This document shows, in pieces, positions 19,004-57,907 of a stretch of 64,000 bases of DNA. The stretch covers positions 1,214,322 through 1,278,321 of the forward strand of contig NC_018015.1 in assembly GCF_000265525.1 (NCBI RefSeq). The letters run 5' to 3'. Made by a program: the position numbers and the translations under genes. The first letter of the stretch is position 1. Every line of letters starts with the position of its first letter. The notes beneath the pieces are model-generated. The model made no database searches. It saw nothing but the letters and a program-made list of their open reading frames with translations, and was not told the origin of the DNA. This DNA is from Thermococcus cleftensis (GTDB lineage Archaea > Methanobacteriota_B > Thermococci > Thermococcales > Thermococcaceae).

Positions 19004-19813
19004 TTAACCTTCCCTATCCACCCGATAGAGAAGGAACAGCGTTTTCCCGTCGGTGCTCTCAATCAGGGGGATTAGAATTCTCTCCCCATCATCGTTTCTC
19101 AGCCTCACCCTCTTTGGTCTCTCCTCAAGCTCCACCTCCAGTCTGAGGGTGTCCCACTCGAACGCGGAGGAACGGCTGATGGGAACGCTTTTCTCTCCCC
19201 CCGATGTTTCGATTACCACCTCTCCGTTCATCGGCGGAACCTCGACGGCCGCGATTACCCTCCCGTACCTTCCGCCCTCCACCGACGAGTAGGCCAGCAC
19301 GATTCCCAGGAGAAGGAGGAGCAGGGGGAGGACGATTCCCCCGGTGGTGATGTTAAGGCTTCTTCCGAGCCACATCAGGCCGGTCGAGACCAGGAGGGCC
19401 AGAACAACCACTGGCAGGGCGTAAATGAAGACCCTCCAGCCCGGCACTCCAAGTGCCTTTTCCAGTCCCTCCGCGGAGTCCGCGTACTCGGCCAGAACGC
19501 TCAGCCCGATCAGTGATAGGATTACCGCGGGGCTGGAGAAGTAGGGGTCATTCAGCACGGCCTCGCTTATGGCCTCGTGAGCCTGGGGGAAGGCAACCCT
19601 CAGGAACCCGGAGAGGGCCATCGCGTAGGGCACGGAGTAGAGGACGGTAGAGAGGAATACCGTCCCGCTCGCCGAGCCGCCCAGCAGGTGGAGACCCAGG
19701 AGGATTATTCCCACCGCGGTGGCGAGGAGGGGGTCTCCGCCGAAGGCGCTCGAGTAGGCGAGTGGGGTAAGCGCTATCGCCGGAGCGACGACCGCGAGCT
19801 TCAGGACTCTCAC
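19004..19813 (-). CDS. Polytopic membrane protein of the DUF58 cluster
   Basis: A 269-residue protein with roughly five or six hydrophobic segments in residues 1-180 followed by a soluble beta-rich tail of about 85 residues ending in a basic/acidic mix. No family was recognised. Its start overlaps the DUF58 stop by four bases, so it is the last gene in a coupled series of five running from the transglutaminase-like gene. It may be the membrane partner of a cell-surface assembly or chaperone system, by context only. Confidence 0.7.
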   Translation of the reverse strand: MRVLKLAVVAPAIALTPLAYSSAFGGDPLLATAVGIILLGLHLLGGSASGTVFLSTVLYSVPYAMALSGFLRVAFPQAHEAISEAVLNDPYFSSPAVILSLIGLSVLAEYADSAEGLEKALGVPGWRVFIYALPVVVLALLVSTGLMWLGRSLNITTGGIVLPLLLLLLGIVLAYSSVEGGRYGRVIAAVEVPPMNGEVVIETSGGEKSVPISRSSAFEWDTLRLEVELEERPKRVRLRNDDGERILIPLIESTDGKTLFLLYRVDREG

Positions 19814-21054
19814 GCTATCTCCCCCAGGAGTTTGCTTAGCGTCTCGCCCAGGTCTTCCCTTCCCGGAACCCAGCGGACGACGTGGGCCAGGCCCTCAAGC
19901 TCCCCGAGCACGGCGCGCTTCTCTAGCTCGATGAGGGTTCCCGTTCTCTCGTCGAGGGTCGGGTAAACCGAGACGTCCACGAGCACGGGGCGCCTTCTCT
20001 CCACCCTCCCCACGGTTCTGAGCCCCCTGGTGGTATCCTCCTTCGTCCCCTCGAGCACGTTGGAGACGTAGATGACCAGGGGGCTGTACTGGACGAGGGC
20101 CCGCTTGAGCCTCTCCACGGCGTCGGAAAGGCTCTCCTCCTCACCTGGAACCCTCTCGAAGTCCATCATTGTCCTGACGATGCTCTCGAGCTGTCTCCTC
20201 CCGGTGGTGGGAGGCAGGAACTTTCTCGCCCCCAGGAGGTAGAGGCCCACGTGGTAGTCTCTCCGGAGGTAGTGATGGGCCGTCGAAGCCACGAGCTTCA
20301 TCGCGTGCTCGTAGGGGCTCTCACCCTCAGTTCCCACCTTCATCTCCTCCCTCGCGTCCACGATGAAGAGTACCGCCTTCTTTCCTTCCCTCTCGAACTC
20401 GTTCACCAGAACCCTTCCCGTTCTTGCAGTGGCCTTCCAGTTGATGAGCTTCATCGGGTCGCCGGTCCGGTAGTCCCTTATCTCCTTGAAGTCCGTGGAG
20501 ATGGGCCCCCTTATGGAGAAGCTCGTCTCGGGGACGCTTATCCTGGCTTTCCTCCTCGTTCCGGTCACCGGAACGGCCCTTATCATCTCGGGAACAGCTA
20601 TAAGCAGCAGCTCCCGGCCGTAGATCCCCCAGCGGTACCTCGTCCCCAGGGGGTTCCTTGCGGTGACTTCCGTCCTCGGCAGGGTGTAGGTTCCCCTCAG
20701 GGTTGGTTTTATCCTGTAGGTGTAGCGAACCCTCAGCGGTTTTGGCCCCTTGAAGAATGCCCTGGCGTTGCTTCCCGCGGTGAGGGCCGTGCTCCTCGGC
20801 AGTCTGTCCTTGACCGCCACAATCCCCAGCCCCCTCCCCACGCTCACCTCTACCTCAACCTCGACCTCCTCTCCCAGCCGGATTTCCCGCTTCGAGAGCC
20901 TCTTCCTTACCTCGATTTTCCCGGGCGGGTCAATGAGCGCCGCCAGCGCCAGGACTGAGAGCGGCACCAAGGCTAGTGCAATCATTCCCGGGGCCAGGAG
21001 GGCCGTTCCCAGTATCAGTGCCCAGAGGACGTACCCCACCAGGCGCTTCTTCAT
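19810..21054 (-). CDS. DUF58 domain-containing protein
   Basis: A 414-residue protein with two N-terminal membrane segments (about 7-43), a beta-rich CARDB/immunoglobulin-like region (about 50-130) and a DUF58/vWA-related domain. The family signature is clear: F-K-E-I-R-D-Y-R-T-G-D-P, then I-N-W-K-A-T-A-R near residue 203 and F-I-V-D-A-R-E-E-M for the vWA strand (MIDAS-like Asp-x-Ser is degraded to D-A-R-E). DUF58 proteins normally work with a MoxR AAA+ ATPase encoded next to them; here that gene is collapsed (21051-21230). ATG 21054 overlaps the remnant's stop (ATGA). Confidence 0.88.
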   Translation of the reverse strand: MKKRLVGYVLWALILGTALLAPGMIALALVPLSVLALAALIDPPGKIEVRKRLSKREIRLGEEVEVEVEVSVGRGLGIVAVKDRLPRSTALTAGSNARAFFKGPKPLRVRYTYRIKPTLRGTYTLPRTEVTARNPLGTRYRWGIYGRELLLIAVPEMIRAVPVTGTRRKARISVPETSFSIRGPISTDFKEIRDYRTGDPMKLINWKATARTGRVLVNEFEREGKKAVLFIVDAREEMKVGTEGESPYEHAMKLVASTAHHYLRRDYHVGLYLLGARKFLPPTTGRRQLESIVRTMMDFERVPGEEESLSDAVERLKRALVQYSPLVIYVSNVLEGTKEDTTRGLRTVGRVERRRPVLVDVSVYPTLDERTGTLIELEKRAVLGELEGLAHVVRWVPGREDLGETLSKLLGEIA

Positions 21055-21230
21055 TTTTCCTCGCCTTTTGGCACTGGAGTCTTCCTCAGGGCCTCCCTCA
21101 CGGCCTCTTCTCCACTCACACCCTTAGAAGAAAACTCGGGCTTGATAACGGCCCCATTACCAACAAAAACCTCCGAGATCGTTTCAACTACCCCCTCCAG
21201 TCTTTCTGGGGCTTTATCTATTCCCATCAT
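21051..21230 (-). CDS. MoxR-like remnant or microprotein (about 59 aa)
   Basis: A tiny open frame wedged between two genes with ATGA overlaps at both ends. The first part (R-L-E-G-V-V-E-T-I-S-E-V-F-V-G-N then A-V-I-K) reads like the N-terminus of MoxR ATPases just before Walker A, while the second (P-E-F-S-S-K-G-V-S-G-E-E-A-V-R-E-A-L then T-P-V-P-K) reads like the last MoxR residues. The AAA+ core of about 250 residues is missing in frame at the I-K-P-E-F junction near 21141. The ORF can be extended to GTG 21239, but ATG 21230 overlaps the preceding stop. It is either an internal-deletion relic kept for coupling or a small functional protein. Confidence 0.6.
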   Translation of the reverse strand: MMGIDKAPERLEGVVETISEVFVGNGAVIKPEFSSKGVSGEEAVREALRKTPVPKGEEK

Positions 21231-22201
21231 TTCTCCCACCCCATCATCTTTCTCAGCTCCTCGAGAACTTCCTCAACGATTCTGGCCCTCCGCTCTAGCT
21301 CCCTTCTCTCTATGACCCGCCTTATCCACGGGGGCGTTAGCGGGGAGGTTTTTCTCCCCTCGTAGTCCGCTATCCTGGCTATCAGCTCCTCGAACTCTTC
21401 CCTCTCCTCGAAGACCCTTGCCCCGTAGTATGCCAGGAACGCCGTGAGCGGTCCCCTCCTTCCCCTGACCACGAAGTCCTCTATCGCCTTGCTGGCGTTT
21501 TCCAGTTCCTTTCCCAGCTTCCTGGCCGTCTTCGACTCGTGCCTCCTCCACTGGGAGATGAGGTACTCCTCCGGGTCGCTCCCGCTCACGTGGGCGTGAA
21601 CGAGGCTCCCGGCCGTTATTACCGCCAGCAGTAGGGCCAGCCACTCGCCATAGAACACCAGCGATGGGTGGCTTTCGCTCAGGGTCCCCCTGAAGGACGC
21701 GTACAGGCCGAGCGCTCCCCCGAGGACTCCCACCCCGATGAGGTTCCTCTCCACCGGCTCGGCCCAGGAGTGCCCCCTCTCGTGGAGTTCGGCCAGGAGG
21801 TAGCCTGCGAGGAGGAAAAGGCCAGCGTAGGTGAAGACGCTCCCGATAGGCTCGAGCGGCGGAAGGAGCGAGAGGCCGTAGAGGAAAACCATCAGCCCGG
21901 CACCCCTGGCCGTTCTCGAGAAGCGCTCGAGCCTCGGCGCGATGAGGGCCGTTCCTCCTCCGAGGATTACCAGAGCCAGGGGCACGGTGCCGACGGCGAG
22001 CGCGAGACCGACGATCCTGACCGCGAGGCCCGCCTTTTCTCCCCTGGCGGCTTCGACGGCGTCCCCGGCCATCATGAAAACGGTCAGAATGAGGGCTGGT
22101 CTGAGAAGGTTTTCCAGACCTCCAACGCGCGTTGAGAGGGCGTAGATTAGACCCAGTATCCCGAGGTACACCGCGACCCTTCCCAAGTTGGGCTTAAACA
22201 A
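21227..22201 (-). CDS. Membrane protein with C-terminal cytosolic helical region (DUF58 cluster)
   Basis: About 324 residues with eight or so hydrophobic segments in the first 200 residues and a charged helical tail rich in Glu and Arg. Not matched to a known family. GGGGGTGA at 22208-22215 gives good spacing to a TTG at 22201; a GTG at 22210 would sit inside that site, although it overlaps the upstream stop more classically. It lies between the transglutaminase-like gene and the MoxR remnant, overlapping both, so it is part of one coupled operon. Confidence 0.72.
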   Translation of the reverse strand: MFKPNLGRVAVYLGILGLIYALSTRVGGLENLLRPALILTVFMMAGDAVEAARGEKAGLAVRIVGLALAVGTVPLALVILGGGTALIAPRLERFSRTARGAGLMVFLYGLSLLPPLEPIGSVFTYAGLFLLAGYLLAELHERGHSWAEPVERNLIGVGVLGGALGLYASFRGTLSESHPSLVFYGEWLALLLAVITAGSLVHAHVSGSDPEEYLISQWRRHESKTARKLGKELENASKAIEDFVVRGRRGPLTAFLAYYGARVFEEREEFEELIARIADYEGRKTSPLTPPWIRRVIERRELERRARIVEEVLEELRKMMGWEK

Positions 22202-25200
22202 CGCATTCACCCCCGGTAAGCTCGAGCATCGCGCGGTGGAAGCGTATGAACTCCTCCCTCGTCACCTCCCCTCCGCCGTACTTGACTCTCTCGAGTGTCT
22301 CCGTCACCACGTTGATGGGCTCCCAGGGGTACATCATGTCCTTCAACGCCTTCGCTATTTCCCTCGGCGTCAGTTCCTCGACATTGAGTCCGGCTTTCCT
22401 GGCCCATGGGAGGAAGCACCTCTCGTAGTCCTCGACCACCACTTTGCCGTAGCTCGGAACCACCCTGACCGCGGTCCTTTCAACTTCGTCCCCGCAGATG
22501 GCTTCAATCTCGTGCCTCCCCGGCGGAAGGTCCAGCCGGAACCTTCTCCCCCTGCCGAGCGGCGTCCCATCGACGCGGAGCTCGGCCTCACCGCCGCACT
22601 CCACCTCCAGCTCGATCTCCTCGCCCTTCCTGAAGAGGGGCAAACCGTCCCGGAAGATTATCTTGACGGTTCTTCCCGAGGTCTCTTCCCGCCTCGTCCT
22701 TCCAAGCCAGTACTTCCCTGCGAGGACGCCGACGATCGCCAGGACAACCAGGTAAGGCCAGGGAAAGCTCTTCTCCCTCGAGAGGACGATGTGAAGCTCG
22801 GCCCTCGTGGGGAGGTAGTAAGTCGAACCCCTGAAGACAACCGTCACCGTTTCGTTGGTCTCCTCGTCGGGCACAGGGAGGTAAACGGTCGCTATTCCCG
22901 AGCCGTTGGTGAGGGCTAGGGTTGAGAAGTTCCCCGCCTTCACCTCGAGCTGGATCCCCTCCACGGGTTCGTCCAGGACGTCGGTCACCTTGAGTTCCAC
23001 CCGGGCCTTCTCCTCTCCCTCCGCCCGTTTGGTGAGGGCCTCTATCCTCAGGGGTGAGACCACCTTCACCGCCGTCCTCCCGAGGACCCTCGCTCCCTGC
23101 CTGAACTCCACGGACTTCTCGCCAACGGTCTGGAATGGCTCGAGGGTCAGGCTGAAGCTTCCGTTGGCCACTCTAACGGTGTAGGTCTTTTCAGGGAACA
23201 CGTAGGCCTCTATCACAGCGTCCTCTATTCCGATCACCCTCCCGCTGATTTTGACCGGCTCCCCGGGTCCTGCCTCTACCTCCCTCGGCAGCTCAAGCTC
23301 CACCGCCGCGACGGTGACGTTCAGGACGGAGGGCGCGTAATCCTTGCTCCCCGGGTGTTCCAGGGTCAGAACGTGCCTCCCGACCTCTGGAAGGTAAAGT
23401 CTCAGCGAGAAGCCCCCGCTCGTCAGGGTTTTTGTCCCTCCCAACGGCCTTCCGTCAAGGTAATAATTCACGCTGGCGTTGGCTATCGGCCTTCCCGCTC
23501 CGTCCCTCAGCGTCCCGACGATGGTAACGTTGCCAGGTCTGGTCAGAATCGGCCCGGAAAGCGAGAATCTGGAGAGCCCCCTGATTCTGACCGTGACCAC
23601 GTTGCCTCCTGGGAGGTAGGGATATCCAATGGGTGCGATGTAGTAGAGCATCACCTGTCCCGTTCCGGGTTCGAGGTACGGAGGAATCCTGGCGAGAACG
23701 GAGAAGGTTCCGTTCGAGACGTTGGAAACCCCGAGGAGGATCATTCTATTCCCGTCGCTGATGAAGGCCGCTGCCTTGCCCCTTGTCGGTCTTTCGCCCG
23801 TGGGGGTAATCACCTCGCCCGTTAAGTTAAGGAACTCCCCCGCGGTCAGGGTTTTTGGAACGTTGGCTTTCACCTCCGTCCTCTCAACAACGATCACCGG
23901 CAGGTAAACGGGGAACTTCTGGCCGTCCTTCGTCACCACCAGCTTCTCCACGTGGAGGCCGTTTGGGTAGTCGGCCGGGGCGTTGAGCCTGACGTAGATC
24001 TTCGTCTCGTTTCTTACCGTTTCGATGGCGGACCAGGACTCAACGAGGCGTGAATCGGTCTCCAGGTCGATTTTCCCCGTTCCGTAAACCGTGATTTCAA
24101 CCTCCTCGCTCCCGCTCTTGAGCAGATTAACGGCCGTCCGGTTTGGCCTCGCCGAAAGCTCGCCCGGAACCAAAACCTGGGCGAACCTTACGATGCTCTC
24201 TCCCCTTTCAGTCGAGGCGTTCACTATTATGGGGTAGTATCCGGGTTTCCAGAACGGGCCGATTGTCACGTTGTGTATCCCCGATTCGTTGATTAGGGCA
24301 ATGACACCAACTTCCGGTGCCTTTACCTCAACCCTTGCCCCGCTCTCGCTCGCCACGCGCTCGAACCTGATCCCCAGGGTTCCCGTCCCGTTCGGTTCGA
24401 GAATCGGGGGGACACCCCTGATTGACAGCTCGAAGGGGGTGTAAACGTTCGGGTCTGGGTGGAGGGGGTCGAAGACTAGCCAGCCGGCGCCGTTGAAGTA
24501 AACCTCCGCCCAGAAGTGCCTGTTTTTCTCGGTCACGACCTGGGTCTGGGGTATCGCCTCGATGTATAGGCCCTCCACCAGCCTCGCGGGAAGGTCGTTG
24601 AGCCTCGCGAGGATCACGAAGGCCGTTGCGAAGTCGTACGGAGTGCCAGCCTTCGAGTCAAGGAGGAACCACCTCAGCCTGTCGGTGCCTTCCGGTGGAG
24701 CTACATCGTCCTCCACCCGATAGTTCTCGGCCAAGTATCTAGCTATCCTGACGGCCTTCTCGTAGTCCGAGAGCGAGCCGAGGGTTATCCCCCTAGCCAG
24801 AGATTCCAGCCTCGTGTCGTTGGGGGCGGAGAGGTAGATGCTCTGGTTTCCAGCTGTGAGGTTCACCAGGTGGGGCCAGTCAAATGTGTAGCTGACCGAG
24901 GAGAAGGAGTAGGAACTTACCCTCAGGCCGGTTCTGAAGAGGTTGTACTCCGGCACCACCTCCGCCCCGGCCCCCTCGACCCTCGTCGTGTAGAGGGACG
25001 TGAAGAGGTTCCCGGTGAGGGGTGTGAAAGATACCACCGTCACGTTGTCCCTCTCGGCATGGTGTGGAACGGTTATCTCCGGTGGGGCGATGACGTTCCT
25101 CTGAACCGCCGTGGCGTTCCTGGTCACCCACCTTCCTGCCTCGTAGTCCGTGTAAACGTTGAGCCTCAGGTAGTGGGTGTGTGCTGCCCCGCTGACCAGA

Positions 25201-25394
25201 AGAACGAGGTTTGGTTCCCCGGGCGGTCCGGTCTCGTTGGTCTCGTTCCCGGGCGGAAGCTTTGGGGAGAGGAGCTCCTCGATGCTCTTCGTCCCCGGGG
25301 GCGCCTTTATGATGACTGGCCTCAGGGCGATCGAAGTGAGGAGCAGGGAGATTAGGGTTATGGTGAGAAAGGTCACTTGCTTTCTTTGCACCAT
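22194..25394 (-). CDS. Large surface protein with cysteine-less transglutaminase-like domain
   Basis: A 1066-residue exported protein. An N-terminal membrane/signal segment (about 7-27) is followed by a beta-rich region and a transglutaminase-like domain (about 210-315). In that domain the catalytic His293 (R-H-F-W-A-E-V) and Asp309 (V-F-D-P) are present, but the nucleophile position reads T-P-Y-D-F-A-T-A-F, with Pro252 where Cys is expected. Many Ig/CARDB-like beta modules follow, then a membrane segment near 885-905 and a cytosolic tail of about 160 residues. The start ATG 25394 lies about 28 nt from the TATA box. Related TgpA-like proteins accompany DUF58 and MoxR genes, as here. Confidence 0.82.
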   Translation of the reverse strand: MVQRKQVTFLTITLISLLLTSIALRPVIIKAPPGTKSIEELLSPKLPPGNETNETGPPGEPNLVLLVSGAAHTHYLRLNVYTDYEAGRWVTRNATAVQRNVIAPPEITVPHHAERDNVTVVSFTPLTGNLFTSLYTTRVEGAGAEVVPEYNLFRTGLRVSSYSFSSVSYTFDWPHLVNLTAGNQSIYLSAPNDTRLESLARGITLGSLSDYEKAVRIARYLAENYRVEDDVAPPEGTDRLRWFLLDSKAGTPYDFATAFVILARLNDLPARLVEGLYIEAIPQTQVVTEKNRHFWAEVYFNGAGWLVFDPLHPDPNVYTPFELSIRGVPPILEPNGTGTLGIRFERVASESGARVEVKAPEVGVIALINESGIHNVTIGPFWKPGYYPIIVNASTERGESIVRFAQVLVPGELSARPNRTAVNLLKSGSEEVEITVYGTGKIDLETDSRLVESWSAIETVRNETKIYVRLNAPADYPNGLHVEKLVVTKDGQKFPVYLPVIVVERTEVKANVPKTLTAGEFLNLTGEVITPTGERPTRGKAAAFISDGNRMILLGVSNVSNGTFSVLARIPPYLEPGTGQVMLYYIAPIGYPYLPGGNVVTVRIRGLSRFSLSGPILTRPGNVTIVGTLRDGAGRPIANASVNYYLDGRPLGGTKTLTSGGFSLRLYLPEVGRHVLTLEHPGSKDYAPSVLNVTVAAVELELPREVEAGPGEPVKISGRVIGIEDAVIEAYVFPEKTYTVRVANGSFSLTLEPFQTVGEKSVEFRQGARVLGRTAVKVVSPLRIEALTKRAEGEEKARVELKVTDVLDEPVEGIQLEVKAGNFSTLALTNGSGIATVYLPVPDEETNETVTVVFRGSTYYLPTRAELHIVLSREKSFPWPYLVVLAIVGVLAGKYWLGRTRREETSGRTVKIIFRDGLPLFRKGEEIELEVECGGEAELRVDGTPLGRGRRFRLDLPPGRHEIEAICGDEVERTAVRVVPSYGKVVVEDYERCFLPWARKAGLNVEELTPREIAKALKDMMYPWEPINVVTETLERVKYGGGEVTREEFIRFHRAMLELTGGECVV

Positions 25395-25417
25395 GATGTT
25401 CCTTACCTCAACCACTG

Positions 25418-50232: not shown

Positions 50233-51420
50233 TCACTTCAAGAACCCGGTCTTCTTCCCGAGGTCTTCGAAGGCGTCGATGACGTACTGGAGGTCCTCCT
50301 TGCTGTGGCCGGCCGATGGCTCGAGCCTTATCCTCGCGGTTCCGAGCGGGACGGTCGGGTAAACTATCGCCTGCGCGAAGATGTTGTACTCCTCGTAGAG
50401 CCTCCTGCTGAACTCCTGGGCGAGCTTCTCGTCGTAGAGCATGACCGGCGTAATCGGGTGCTTGGTGTTGCCGAGGTCGTAGCCTAACTCGCGGAGCCCG
50501 TTCTGGAGGAAGTGGGTGTTGTCCCAGAGCTTTTTAACGAGCTCGTCGCTCCTCTGGAGTATCTCGACGGCCGCTATTGCAGCCGCTACATCGGGCGGGT
50601 TGGGCGCGCTGGAGAAGAGGAACGGTCTGGCCCTCTGGCGGAGGTAGTCTATGGCCTCCTCCGGGCCGGCGACGTAGCCGCCTATAACACCGAAGGCCTT
50701 GCTGAGCGTTCCCATCTCGAAGTCAACCCTGTCGTGGAGCTTGAAGTGGTCCACTATACCTCTCCCGTGCTCTCCGAGGACGCCCTCACCGTGCGCGTCG
50801 TCGATGTAGATTATCGCGTCGTACTGCTCCGCCAGCTCGGCCATCTCGGGGAGCGGGGCGAGGTCACCGTCCATCGAGAAGACACCGTCGCTGACGATGA
50901 TTTTCTTCTTCTTGTCCTTGTTCTCCTTGAGGCGCTTCTCGAGGTCCTCCATGTCGATGTGCTTGTAGATCACCTTCGGCGCGCCGCTGAGGCGCATTCC
51001 GTCTATGATGCTCGCGTGGTTGAGCTCCTCGCTGATGAAAACCCCGTCCTCGCCCTTCCTGAGGAGTGCACTTATAGCTCCCAGGTTCGCGTTGTAACCG
51101 CTCTGGAGGAGTATGGCAGCTTCCCTCTTCTTGAACTTGGCCAGCTTCTCCTCCAGTTCAACGTGGAGCTCCATGGTGCCGGCTATGGTTCTGACGGCAC
51201 CGGCACCGACGCCGTAGTCGAGGATTGCCCTTATCGCGGCGTAGCGGATCTCCGGGTGGGCCGCTAAGCCGAGGTAGTTGTTGGAGCACATGTTGAGAAC
51301 CTTCTTCCCATCAACGACAACCCAGGGGCCCTGGGCGCTTTCAAGCTTCCTTATGGTCACGTAGAGCCCCTTGTCCTTGAGCTCCTGAAGCTCCTCCTTA
51401 ATCCAGTCAAGCTTCCCCAT
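50233..51420 (-). CDS. kbl: 2-amino-3-ketobutyrate coenzyme A ligase (alpha-oxoamine synthase)
   Basis: A 395-residue PLP-dependent alpha-oxoamine synthase. The lysine that binds PLP lies in T-L-S-K-A-F-G near residue 242; [10 protein letters not shown] near 208 and N-N-Y-L-G near 46 are family motifs. The enzyme cleaves 2-amino-3-oxobutyrate to glycine and acetyl-CoA in threonine breakdown; the Thermococcus enzyme can also be ligase-type for other acyl-CoAs. Length is normal. GGTGG before ATG 51420 selects the start; TATA (minus strand) at 51452-51459. Confidence 0.93.
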
Positions 51421-51451
51421 GAGAACCACCGGTTGTAGTTGGACACCGGAG

Positions 51452-51983: not shown

Positions 51984-54900
51984 ATGTCGGCGGAGATTCA
52001 GGAGGTTAAGATCCTCGAGAAACCCTGGGTTGAGAAGTACCGGCCCCAGAGGCTCGACGACATCGTCGGTCAGGAGCACATAGTCAAGAGGCTCAAACAC
52101 TACGCTAAAACCGGTTCCATGCCGCACCTTCTCTTCGCGGGCCCGCCCGGTGTCGGGAAGTGCCTCACGGGGGACGCGAAGGTCATCGCCAACGGCGAGC
52201 TGACGACGATCGGGGAGCTCGTTGAGAGGATCGGCAACGGCAGGTTCGGGCCAACCCCGGTTAAGGGCCTTAAGGTTCTTGGCATTGACGAGGACGGCAG
52301 GCTTAGGGAACTTCCCGTGGAGTACGTTTACAAGGATAAGACGAACGAGCTTGTCAGGATAAGGACGGGGCTCGGGAGGGAGCTCAAGGTAACGCCCTAC
52401 CACCCCCTCCTCGTTAACAGAAAGAACGGCAGAATCGAGTGGGTGAAAGCGGAGGAGCTGGAACCTGGCGACAGGCTCGCCGTCCCGCGCTTCCTCCCCG
52501 CGGTTCTCGAGGAGGACCCGCTCGCCGAGTGGCTCGGATACTTCATAGGCGACGGTCACGCCGACGCGCAGAGCAACGTCATAACCTTCACGAACACGGA
52601 CGCAAAGCTTAGAAAGCGCTTCATGGAGCTTACGGAGAGGCTCTTTCCAGATGCAAAAATCAGGGAGAGACTCCACAGAAACCGCGCGCCCGACGTCTAC
52701 GTGAACTCGAAGATGGCCAAGGAGCTCGTCAAAGGCCTCGACCTCGCTGGCAGAAAGGCCGACAGAGTTTACATACCCCCCCGGGGGTGGAGGGGCCTAC
52801 GCTCCTTCCTGAGGGCCTACTTCGACTGCGACGCCGGCGTTGAGAGGGGGGGTATAGTCCTCTCCACCGCCAGCAGGGAGATGGTGGAGCAGATTTCTTA
52901 CGCCCTCGCCGGGCTGGGAATCACGGCCAAGGTCAAGGAAAGGCGCGTGAAGAAACGTCCCTACTACTACGTCGTCATATCCGGCTCGAACAACGTGTCG
53001 CGCTTCCTGGCTGAGGTTGGATTCTCGATTGAAGAGAAGAGAAGGAAAGCGGAGGCGCTCATAAGGAACCCCAACCCTAACGTCGGTTCCCTCTACGCTG
53101 ACAGGGAGCTGATTTCCTACGTCAGGGACAGGCTCAAGCTGAGGTTCTCAGATGACAAAGCCCGCTGGAGCCCTGAGAAAGCCAGGAAAATATCCTGGGA
53201 GCTCATGAAGGAAATCTACTACCGCCTCGATGAGCTTGAGAATCTGGAGAAAGCCCTGTCGAGGAGCATTCTGATAGACTGGAACCAGGTCGAGGAGAGG
53301 AGAAAGGAGATAGCGGAGAAGACCGGGATAAGGGCTGATAGAATCCTCGAGTACGTGAGGGGCAAGAGGAAGCCGAGCCTGAGGAACTACCTGAAAATAG
53401 CAAAGGCACTCGGCATTGACCTTGAGGAGACGGTAGAGGCAATGCGCCTCTTTGCCAGGAAGTACTCCAGCTATGCGGAGATTGGAAGGCTCGTTGGGAC
53501 GTGGAACTCAAGCGTCAGGATAATCCTCGAGGGCAACACGGAGAAGATAGAGACCCTTGAAGAGATCAGGAAGGCGGAGCTAGAACTCCTCAGGGGCATA
53601 CTGAATGATGAGAAGCTCAAGAGGGGAGTGGCCTACCTGATCTTCCTCGCCCAGAACGAGCTCGTGTGGGACGAGATAGTTGAGATCGAGAGGCTCAGGG
53701 GAGATTTTGTGATCTACGACCTGCACGTTCCCGGCTACCACAACTTCATCGGTGGGAACCTCCCGACGGTTCTCCACAACACGACCGCCGCTCTGGCCCT
53801 CGCTCGCGAGCTCTTCGGCGAGAACTGGAGGCACAACTTTTTGGAACTGAACGCAAGCGATGAACGCGGGATAAACGTTATCCGAGAGAAGGTGAAAGAA
53901 TTTGCAAGGACGAAGCCGGTCGCGGGGGCGAGCTTCAAGATAATCTTCCTCGACGAGGCAGACGCTTTGACCCAGGATGCCCAGCAGGCCCTGAGGAGAA
54001 CGATGGAGATGTTCTCCAACAACGTCCGCTTTATCTTGAGCTGCGTTACCGGCGATACGAGGATATACACCCCCGACGAGAGGGAGGTCAGGATAAGGGA
54101 CTTCCTGGGACACTTCGAGAGGGGGCTCCTGAGGGAGGTCAGCAACCGCGCCGGGAGGGACACGGTTATTGCCGCGGTTGCCTTCAACTCCAGGATTGTG
54201 GGCCACCCGGTCTTCAGGCTGACCCTTGAGAGCGGAAGGACGATAGAGGCAACCGGCGACCACATGTTCCTCACCCCTGAAGGCTGGGTTCAGACGTACG
54301 ACCTCAAGGAGGGCTCGGAGGTTCTCGTCAGGCCAACGCTTGAGGGAACCCCCTACGAGGAGGACCCGAGGCCGATAATTGACCTGGGGGACTTTTACGC
54401 CTTCCTGGAGAAGATCGAGAGGGAGCACGGGCTCAAGCCCATCGGCGAGGCCAGAACCTTCCGGGAGCTGCTGACTCGGGAGAAGGAGAAAATCCTCGCG
54501 AGGGCACTGGAGCTCAAGGCGGAGATGGAGAACGGCCTCACGGCGAGGGAGGCGGAGGTACTTGAGCTGATACCCGGGGAGTGGATTTCGAGGGAGGAGC
54601 TCCAGCGGAAGACCGGCCTCTCCCGCGTGAGGATCAACCAGCTCCTGAAGTCCCTGGAGGAGAAGGGCTACGTCGAGAGGAGGATTTCGGGGAAGGCCCA
54701 GCTCGTCAGGAAGGTTCGTGAAGGAAGGCCCCTGAGGAACCCGATGGACGTGAAGAGGGCCCTTGAGGAGGAGTTCGGGATAAGGATAAGCTACACCACC
54801 GTCAGGAAGCTCCTGGCCGGCGAGGTCAGCGGAATGGCCTACGACATACTCCGCGAGGTCAGGGAGAAGTGGCTCGTCCGCTACGACGACGAGAGGGCCG

Positions 54901-56405
54901 GAATCCTCGCGAGGGTTCTTGGATTCCTGCTCGGGGACGGCCACCTGGCCAAGGGAGTAAGGGTGTGGTTCAACTCGGGCAGGGAAGAGCTTGAGATGCT
55001 CGCCGAAGACCTCCGGAAGCTCGGCCTTTCGCCCTCTGAGATAATCGAGCGCGAATCCGGCTCGGAAATCAACGGGAGGCCTGTTAAGGGCAGAATCCAC
55101 ATGCTTTACGTGGACAGCTCGGCCTTCCATGCCCTCATGCGCTACTGGGGTGTCGAGGCCGGCAACAAAACGCGCAGGGGCTACCGCGTGCCGGAGTGGA
55201 TAAAGAAGGGCAACCTATTCGTCAAGAGGGAGTTCCTGCGCGGCCTCTTCGGCGCCGACGGGACAAGGCCGAGCGGAAGGCGCTACAACTTCAACGGGAT
55301 AAAGCTTGAGATGCGCGCGACCCGCGAGAGCCTTGAGCTCACGACGGAGTTCTTCAACGACCTCTCCGAGCTGTTGAGGGAATTCGACGTCGAGTCCAGA
55401 GTCACGGTCTCGCCCGTGGGCGACAGGTTCATAGTCCGCCTCGTGGTTACTCCCAACGACGCCAACTACCTCCGCTTCCTCAGCAGGGTCGGCTACGCCT
55501 ACGCCAAGGACAGCCACGCGAGGCTCGTTGGGGAGTACCTCAGGATCAAGCTCGCCTACAAGGAGATCGTCCTCCCGGAGCTGGCAGAGAAGGCCGTTGA
55601 GCTGGCAACGTCGTCCAACCCGACCAGCGCCGCCAGGCTTCTGGGCGTCAAGAGGGACTTCGTGGTCAGCAGGCTCAAGGGTAAAGAGATTGGCCTGACG
55701 AGGGACTTCATGACGTTCGAGGAATTCCTCCGGGAGAGAACCCTCGACGGCTACGTGGTCGAGAAGGTAATCCGGAAGGAAAACCTTGGGTACCTCGACG
55801 TCTACGACGTCACCTGCGCGAGGGACCACAGCTTCATCTCAAACGGCCTCATCAGCCACAACTGCAACTACTCCTCAAAGATCATCGAACCCATACAGTC
55901 GAGATGCGCCATCTTCCGCTTCAGGCCGCTGAGCGACGAGGACATAGCGAAGCGCATAAGGTACATAGCCGAGAACGAGGGACTGGAGCTTACCGAGGAC
56001 GGCCTGCAGGCCATACTGTACGTCGCAGAGGGGGACCTCAGGAGGGCGATAAACGTCCTGCAGGCGGCAGCGGCCCTCGACAGGAAGATAACCGATGAGA
56101 ACGTCTTCCTCGTGGCAAGCAGGGCGAGACCAGAGGACGTCCGCGAGATGATGCAGCTCGCTCTGGAGGGCAACTTCCTGAAGGCGAGGGAGAAGCTCAG
56201 GGAGATACTCCTCAAACAGGGCCTCAGCGGCGAGGACGTGCTGATTCAGATGCACAAGGAAGTGTTCAACCTGCCGATTCCGGAGGACAGGAAGGTCGCC
56301 CTGGCCGACAAGATAGGCGAGTACAACTTCCGCCTCGTTGAAGGGGCGAACGAGATGATACAGCTTGAGGCTTTACTCGCGCAGTTCACGATTATGGGCA
56401 AGTGA
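51984..56405 (+). CDS. rfcS: Replication factor C small subunit with two inteins
   Basis: A 1473-residue precursor. After removing the two inteins (residues 60-599 and 687-1293) the spliced product has 326 residues, the normal archaeal RFC-S length. The first extein ends inside Walker A, G-P-P-G-V-G-K followed by T-T; the second contains Walker B (I-F-L-D-E-A-D-A) and N-N-V-R-F-I-L-S; the third starts at C-N-Y-S-S-K, the sensor 1 region, and carries S-R-C. RFC loads the PCNA clamp with the large subunit encoded immediately downstream. GGTGG at 51973-51977 gives ATG 51984. Splicing is required for ATP binding. Confidence 0.97.
52161..53780 (+). mobile_element. Intein 1 of RFC small subunit (Walker A site), LAGLIDADG type
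   Basis: A 540-residue intein. Starts C-L-T-G-D at residue 60 of the precursor; ends V-L-H-N before the +1 Thr. Block-type sequences (T-P-Y-H-P-L-L after the splice start) and two LAGLIDADG motifs (L-G-Y-F-I-G-D-G-H and [10 protein letters not shown]) indicate a homing endonuclease that looks intact. Near 53310-53450 an XRE-like helix-turn-helix ([13 protein letters not shown]) is present. It occupies the same P-loop site known as RFC-a in Pyrococcus inteins. Confidence 0.93.
54042..55862 (+). mobile_element. Intein 2 of RFC small subunit (sensor 1 site), LAGLIDADG type
   Basis: A 607-residue intein. Starts C-V-T-G-D at precursor residue 687 and ends I-S-H-N before the +1 Cys of C-N-Y-S-S-K. 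LAGLIDADG motifs are [10 protein letters not shown] and [10 protein letters not shown]. Between the splicing N-block and the endonuclease, a winged-helix-like segment (about 54537-54690: [15 protein letters not shown], then [11 protein letters not shown]) sits as an extra DNA-binding module. It matches the second RFC intein position known from Pyrococcus. Confidence 0.93.
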
Positions 56406-56410
56406 TGGCC

Positions 56411-57907
56411 ATGCAGGAAGTGCCCTGGGTTGAGAAGTACCGGCCGAGGAAGCTCAGCGAGATAGTGAACCAGGAGAAGGCCATAGAGCAGGTGAGGGCC
56501 TGGGTGGAGGCCTGGCTCCACGGCAACCCGCCGAAGAAGAAGGCGCTGATCTTGGCAGGTCCACCGGGAGTGGGCAAGACGACGACGGTTTACGCTTTAG
56601 CAAATGAGTACGGCTTCGAGGTCATCGAGCTGAACGCGAGCGACGAGAGAACCTTTGAGAAGATAGAGCGCTACGTCCAGGCAGCTTACACGCTCGACAT
56701 CCTCGGGAAGAGGAGGAAACTGATATTCCTCGATGAAGCTGACAACATCGAGCCGAGCGGGGCGAGGGAGATAGCGAAGCTCATCGACAGGGCCAGGAAC
56801 CCGATAATAATGAGCGCCAACCACTACTGGGAGGTGCCGAGGGAGATAAGGAACAAGGCGCAGATAGTCGAGTACAAGCGCCTAACGCAGAGGGACATCA
56901 TCAAAGCTTTGATCCGGATTCTCAAGCGCGAGGGCAAGACCGTCCCGAAGGAAATTCTATACGAGATAGCCAAGCGCGCCAGCGGCGATTTGAGGGCGGC
57001 CATAAACGACCTCCAGACGGTGGTTACCGGCGGAACTGAGGACGCGAAGGAAGTTTTAGCCTACCGCGACGTGGAGAAGAGCGTCTTCCAGGCGCTGGCG
57101 CAGATATTCGCCACGGACAACGCGAAGAAGGCCAAGATGGCCACTCTCGGCGTGGATATGTTCCCCCACGAGCTCCTCCAGTGGATAGACGAGAACGTCC
57201 CCTACGTCTACTACAGGCCGGAGGACATTGCTCGCGCCTACGAGGCCCTCAGCAGGGCCGACATATACCTCGGCAGGGCACAGAGGACAGGGAACTACTC
57301 GCTATGGAAGTACGCCACCGACATGATGACCGCTGGAGTTGCCGTCGCGGGGGTTAAGAAGAAGGGCTTCGTGAGGATTTACCCGCCGAAGACGATAAAG
57401 CTCCTCACCGAGAGCAAGGCGGAGCGCTCGCTGAGGGATTCGATAGTCAAGAAGGTCATGAGCGAGATGCACATGGCGAGGCCAGAAGCCCTGGAGACGC
57501 TCCACTACCTCAGGGTAATCTTCGAGAACAACCCCGATTTGGCGGCGCACTTCACCGTCTTCCTCGACCTGAGCGAGAAAGAGGTCGAGTTCCTGGCGGG
57601 GGATTCAGAGAAGGCCAGGACGATTTGGGGCAAGGCGATGAACATCGAGAAGAAGCTCAAGGAGCGGGGCAGGCTGGAGGAGAGCGTCCGCGAGGGCCTC
57701 GCGAGGGCGAAGGAAGAGGCCAAAGAGTCCCCCACTGCTGAGGAGCAAGAGACCGGGGAAGTTGCCAAACCCGAGACGGCTGAAGGGGAACTCACGGAGG
57801 AAGAACTGGAAGAGGCCGAGAAAGAAATCGAGCCCCTCGGCAGGAAGAAGCCCGAAAAGAAGAAGGGCAAGCAGGCGACGCTGTTTGACTTCCTCGGGAA
57901 GAAGTGA
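56411..57907 (+). CDS. rfcL: Replication factor C large subunit
   Basis: A 498-residue AAA+ protein with Walker [10 protein letters not shown] near residue 50 uninterrupted by an intein, and Walker B I-F-L-D-E-A-D-N. The box VII arginine-finger-type region and a long acidic tail rich in Glu follow; the last residues Q-A-T-L-F-D-F-L form the PCNA-interacting PIP box. It is the single L subunit in the RFC complex (1 L with 4 S). It starts just after the RFC-S stop, and an ATG at 56411 is selected by family start (E-V-P-W-V-E-K-Y) over the overlapping ATG 56405. Confidence 0.96.

Follow-up and report, generated by a model that had tools for sequence, protein, structure and literature searches.

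Operons that combine a MoxR gene with a DUF58 gene are widespread, and their MoxR protein is usually regarded as dedicated to the products of the adjoining genes. In Bat-type operons, the MoxR gene comes first (PMC11834572), and MoxR ATPases have been described as aiding dedicated protein complexes in a chaperone-like manner (PMC3893208). The window examined here, a 64,000-nucleotide stretch of the Thermococcus cleftensis chromosome, carries an operon (op1) consisting of five overlapping genes on the minus strand, which extends from window position 25415 to 19004 and unites DUF58 and transglutaminase genes (Table 1). In the genes it contains and in their tight overlaps, op1 conforms to the MoxR-DUF58-transglutaminase class, but in this genome it differs from that class in having no complete MoxR gene in cis, with a copy residing in another operon being the likely supplier. 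The third position in op1, which we designate moxR1, is instead occupied by a short open reading frame whose product corresponds to the two ends of a MoxR protein.

Table 1. Coordinates within the window of the op1 genes and of the segments of the moxR1 remnant
Feature	Position	Strand	Description
Transglutaminase-domain protein	22194..25415	minus	1073 aa; Pfam PF01841, 81.6 bits
327-aa upstream protein	21227..22210	minus	stop overlaps remnant start (ATGA)
moxR1 remnant ORF	21230-21051	minus	ATG start, 59 aa + TGA (TGA at 21053-21051)
N-terminal segment kept	21147..21239	minus	MoxR1 codons 1-31, counting from GTG
Deletion junction	21146..21147	minus	792 bp (264 codons) missing vs full-length MoxR1
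C-terminal segment kept	21051..21146	minus	MoxR1 codons 296-326 + stop
DUF58 protein	19810..21054	minus	intact, 414 aa; Pfam PF01882, 80.1 bits; ATG overlaps remnant stop
269-aa protein	19004..19813	minus	last op1 gene; conserved in orthologous operons

An alternative GTG start codon located 3 codons upstream of the ATG of this remnant (position 21239) would extend its product to 62 aa. An ATGA overlap at positions 21230-21227 joins the start of the remnant to the stop codon of the upstream gene, and a second ATGA overlap at 21054-21051 joins its stop codon to the DUF58 ATG, just 5′ of which the C-terminal segment of the remnant contains a purine-rich stretch. The op1 DUF58 protein is up to 75% identical to its orthologues. 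The 327-aa protein yields no Pfam match, and a partial DUF4129 signal is, by way of correction, to be assigned to the C-terminus of the op1 transglutaminase and not to this protein. A possible reading of the locus as a known anti-phage defence system was dropped, since PADLOC returned 0 matches for six proteins.

Searches with the remnant revealed matches to a complete MoxR gene elsewhere in the same genome (moxR2), both for its C-terminal part (G000:C1:1457030-1457140; E=4e-12, 70% identity) and for its N-terminal part (E=3e-5). As judged from these alignments, the resemblance at both ends is beyond chance and reflects common descent. Upon alignment of the DNA with that of a full-length MoxR gene, the remnant resolves into two gap-free blocks, corresponding to codons 1-31 and 296-326 of the gene in G001, which are separated by one gap of 792 bp; orthologues from the same operon in related genomes also align at both ends of the remnant. 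A preliminary description based on the letters of this DNA had proposed that a MoxR gene was reduced in frame to about 59 codons, that its MoxR-like ends were fused without the AAA+ core, and that both ATGA overlaps were kept. Each of these proposals is borne out by the single 264-codon gap, by the absence of AAA_3 between the two aligned ends, and by the overlaps as they are read directly from the DNA.

The remnant is therefore homologous at both ends to MoxR AAA+ ATPases, which are defined by PF07726 (AAA_3) and PF17863 (AAA_lid_2), but lacks all of AAA_3, including Walker A and Walker B, and most of AAA_lid_2. In the moxR2 product, which is a full member of the family (218 bits to AAA_3; nearest solved chain 2r44, E=6e-79), the sequences GLGKT at residue 50 and LLADEINR at residue 107 both lie inside the stretch deleted from moxR1, and only residues 293-311 of a lid that spans residues 241-311 have a counterpart in the remnant. 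The remnant itself matches no Pfam or NCBIfam model, AAA_3 and AAA_lid_2 included. The deletion junction falls at ~21147/21146, with an ambiguity of ~3 nt (GTC/GTT). When moxR2 is used as a proxy for the lost segment, its edges display only weak microhomology in the form of an imperfect short repeat, GTCGTCAGG versus GTCATCAAG, in which 7/9 positions match.

The distribution of intact MoxR genes was established by comparing this genome (G000; 1,950,313 bp, one contig) with 60 others of the genus. Op1 is present in 23 of the 61 genomes, with genes in the order transglutaminase, 327-aa protein, MoxR, DUF58, and 269-aa protein. Seven of the 23 (G000, G003, G019, G025, G046, G049, and G058) also contain a second operon (op2), which has its own moxR2, transglutaminase, and DUF58 genes. 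All 16 genomes with op1 only encode a full MoxR (~327 aa) at the exact place of the remnant, as do two of the genomes that carry both operons (G025 and G058). A scan of genome contigs returned five loci, two of which derive from Thermococcus MAGs matching G049 and G046. The preliminary description had offered two origins for the short ORF, and the intact genes of the 16 op1-only relatives support the first of these, an in-frame deletion that was fixed without uncoupling the downstream genes. On the strength of these alignments, we conclude that an in-frame deletion of 792 bp became fixed in moxR1 and left the ORF as its scar.

The second origin that had been offered is a microprotein with its own role, in which case the MoxR N-terminal helix and C-terminal tail might act as an adaptor or regulator binding to DUF58 or to the MoxR2 hexamer. 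The reading frame of the remnant is open, its ATG start and both overlaps are retained, and the C-terminal sequence VSGEE..REAL.KTPVPK is well kept, all of which would be compatible with a functional peptide. A single-sequence AlphaFold model of the remnant contains two helices, and a comparison with moxR2 at conserved codons yields nine nonsynonymous and 14 synonymous differences (dN 0.09, dS 0.70). However, the synonymous divergence may mostly predate the deletion, such that the low dN/dS is not assignable to the short form, and confidence in the AlphaFold model is low (pLDDT 66, pTM 0.24); a model of moxR2 made with a narrow alignment, at pLDDT 45, was left unused. An open frame is also expected in 55-78% of cases after 8-20 neutral substitutions, and the prior for an in-frame outcome of a deletion is one in three. 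Like a pseudogene, the remnant combines loss of the catalytic core (264 codons) with relaxed constraint, as F302 has changed to S and E303 to K, both residues being invariant in 31 intact MoxRs. V24, G27, and N28, which are invariant in the same set, are retained in its N-terminal segment. Moreover, no short in-frame version of MoxR exists in the 60 congeneric genomes, with G003 and G046 being in other states. The proposal of a functional microprotein thus finds no support in these data, and we consider it quite improbable.

Loss of moxR1 is a recurrent event, as the gene has been lost in three of the seven genomes that carry both operons (G000, G003, and G046). In G003, a 640-bp out-of-frame deletion with breakpoints different from those in G000 has left a frameshifted ORF of 91 aa, which ends 64 nt before DUF58; the DNA thereby ruled out G003 as a second case of in-frame reduction. 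In G046, there is no trace of moxR1, and an ATGA overlap links DUF58 directly to the homologue of the 327-aa gene. The contigs of G019 and G049 end inside moxR, so the state of moxR1 in these genomes is unscored, and the short MoxRs that they appear to encode represent contig ends rather than deletions. The three losses occupy different places on the op1 tree, with the placement of G000 being weakly supported, and are apparently independent.

Loss of moxR1 occurs only where op2 is present, affecting three of the five determinable genomes versus none of the 16 op1-only genomes (Fisher p=0.0075), or three of seven versus none of 16 if G019 and G049 are counted as intact (Fisher p=0.02), although the association shrinks once relatedness is considered. 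Because at least about half of the op1 tree's terminal branch length belongs to lineages with both operons, three losses among them could be due to chance. Given that the genomes are related, the association between moxR1 loss and the presence of op2 is best viewed as suggestive. The same losses could alternatively indicate that op1 needs no MoxR any more, or is itself decaying, and that the gene was simply lost. The terminal branches of op1 in G000 (0.46) and in G046 (0.82), where even the trace of moxR1 is gone, are indeed long compared with those in G003, G058, G049, and G019 (0.10-0.24), as might be expected of a decaying operon. But G025 likewise has a long op1 branch (0.54) with moxR1 intact, G000, G003, and G046 have kept the DUF58, transglutaminase, and remaining op1 genes open and conserved, and the losses are confined to genomes with op2. 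We consequently regard it as unlikely that op1 is decaying or has no further use for a MoxR.

A search for a replacement identified three other MoxR genes in this genome. One of these is the complete moxR2 (~1456 kb) of op2, which lies ~220 kb from op1 in the opposite orientation; its product shares 85% identity with G030 MoxR1 and is the likely replacement. Alternatively, op1 could be served by the remaining two MoxRs, whose identities to G030 MoxR1 are 55% and 48%.

Comparison of moxR1 with moxR2 in genomes that carry both operons reveals exchange of sequence between the two operons. In G058, the two genes share 907 bp of 100% identity (L050 3253-4159 and L073 3692-4598), with the repeat copies placed in opposite orientation in the chromosome; outside moxR nothing aligns between the DNAs of op1 and op2, and the DUF58 proteins share 34% identity. 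The two genes of G025 share identical patches of up to 194 bp exact, and the left moxR1 remnant of G003 is identical over 169 bp to moxR2 of the same genome. In MoxR trees, the two G058 copies pair and the G025 copies group. The patterns in G058 and G025 are the signature of ectopic gene conversion, which homogenises moxR1 and moxR2. Conversion of this kind is plausible, given reports that T. kodakarensis recombines stretches that are identical over 500 bp or more (PMC5495485) and that it is polyploid (PMC4502288).

Among 31 MoxRs, the nearest relative of the remnant is moxR2 of its own genome, with identities of 82.6% in DNA and 68% at third positions, whereas the next-best MoxR reaches 75% and 52%, respectively. 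This closeness suggests that conversion probably acted in this genome as well, before the deletion occurred. The same comparison bears on the possibility of an assembly artefact, wherein near-identical moxR copies would have confused the assembler and caused the core of one to be dropped. The moxR repeat does break assemblies, as is evident from the contig ends in G019 and G049, but the remnant and moxR2 are far from identical here, with a longest exact match of 26 bp. In addition, the changes in the remnant at residues invariant in intact MoxRs need time after the loss, and the assembly, which consists of one contig, has a junction that is exactly in frame. An artefact is accordingly very improbable.

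Repeated stretches frequently give rise to large inversions in Thermococcales (PMC5495485), and the 907-bp perfect moxR repeat represents a natural substrate for inversions in the rearranged genomes of Thermococcus. In G019, hybrid operons are observed (L058, L059, and L060) in which the front half of op1 runs into moxR at a contig end; op2 follows at the other contig end, and an op2-type moxR start precedes DUF58-1. These hybrids fit either an inversion through moxR, analogous to the recombination between paralogous stretches described for Thermococcales, or a misassembly. The published account of that recombination (PMC5495485) makes no mention of MoxR, and the main signs at the loci studied here differ in being the homogenisation of a gene core and the loss of one copy. 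Literature searches for MoxR in Thermococcus and for concerted evolution of MoxR genes returned nothing relevant. What is new here is that genomes possessing a second, gene-converted copy have repeatedly lost the cis MoxR, which suggests a generic ATPase, with specificity residing on the DUF58/transglutaminase side.

We consider it fairly likely that MoxR2 serves op1 in trans, making moxR1 dispensable, and that the short ORF is a leftover that drifts while maintaining translational coupling. Gene conversion would keep the MoxR cores of both operons alike, while their DUF58 proteins are only about one-third identical. If conversion exchanges the cores and neither operon disappears, then the cores must be functionally interchangeable, and one pool of MoxR produced from moxR2 could act on the DUF58/transglutaminase complexes of both operons. 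With MoxR2 supplied in trans, moxR1 would be redundant and free to be lost, and the deletion would need just an illegitimate event at weak microhomology. The remnant would now be drifting, with perhaps only its ends still visible to selection, where the ATGA overlaps and the sequence preceding the DUF58 start are located; these might allow ribosomes that have translated the 327-aa gene to continue into DUF58. Since the frame has been lost in G003, coupling through the remnant is not essential, and that genome shows that a lineage can survive the loss of coupling, at least for some time. The presumed need of DUF58 systems for their MoxR partner holds only if this partner may act in trans. A more elaborate version of the trans-supply model would have a single MoxR serving two divergent DUF58/transglutaminase machines, with ~0.9-kb conversion keeping the cores interchangeable and leading to repeated shedding of MoxR, and with the remnant in this genome being a selected coupling leader peptide made of two MoxR ends. 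This we put forward with considerable doubt.

Two housekeeping proteins encoded in the window (50233-51429 and 56402-57907) place this genome near G006, G012, G031, and G050 (RfcL 90-91%). These four relatives have op2 only, in a form that is ~55% identical in DUF58, whereas the op1 and op2 of this genome resemble those of G003 and G058. Judged by these similarities, the mismatch between the operons and the housekeeping relatives hints at horizontal transfer or patchy loss. Elsewhere in the genus, the search output includes an op2-like moxR with an internal TAG in G029 (L149), which is possibly another decaying moxR. Within the window, the ORF for the replication factor C small subunit (51984-56405) encodes 1473 aa and appears to carry two inteins.
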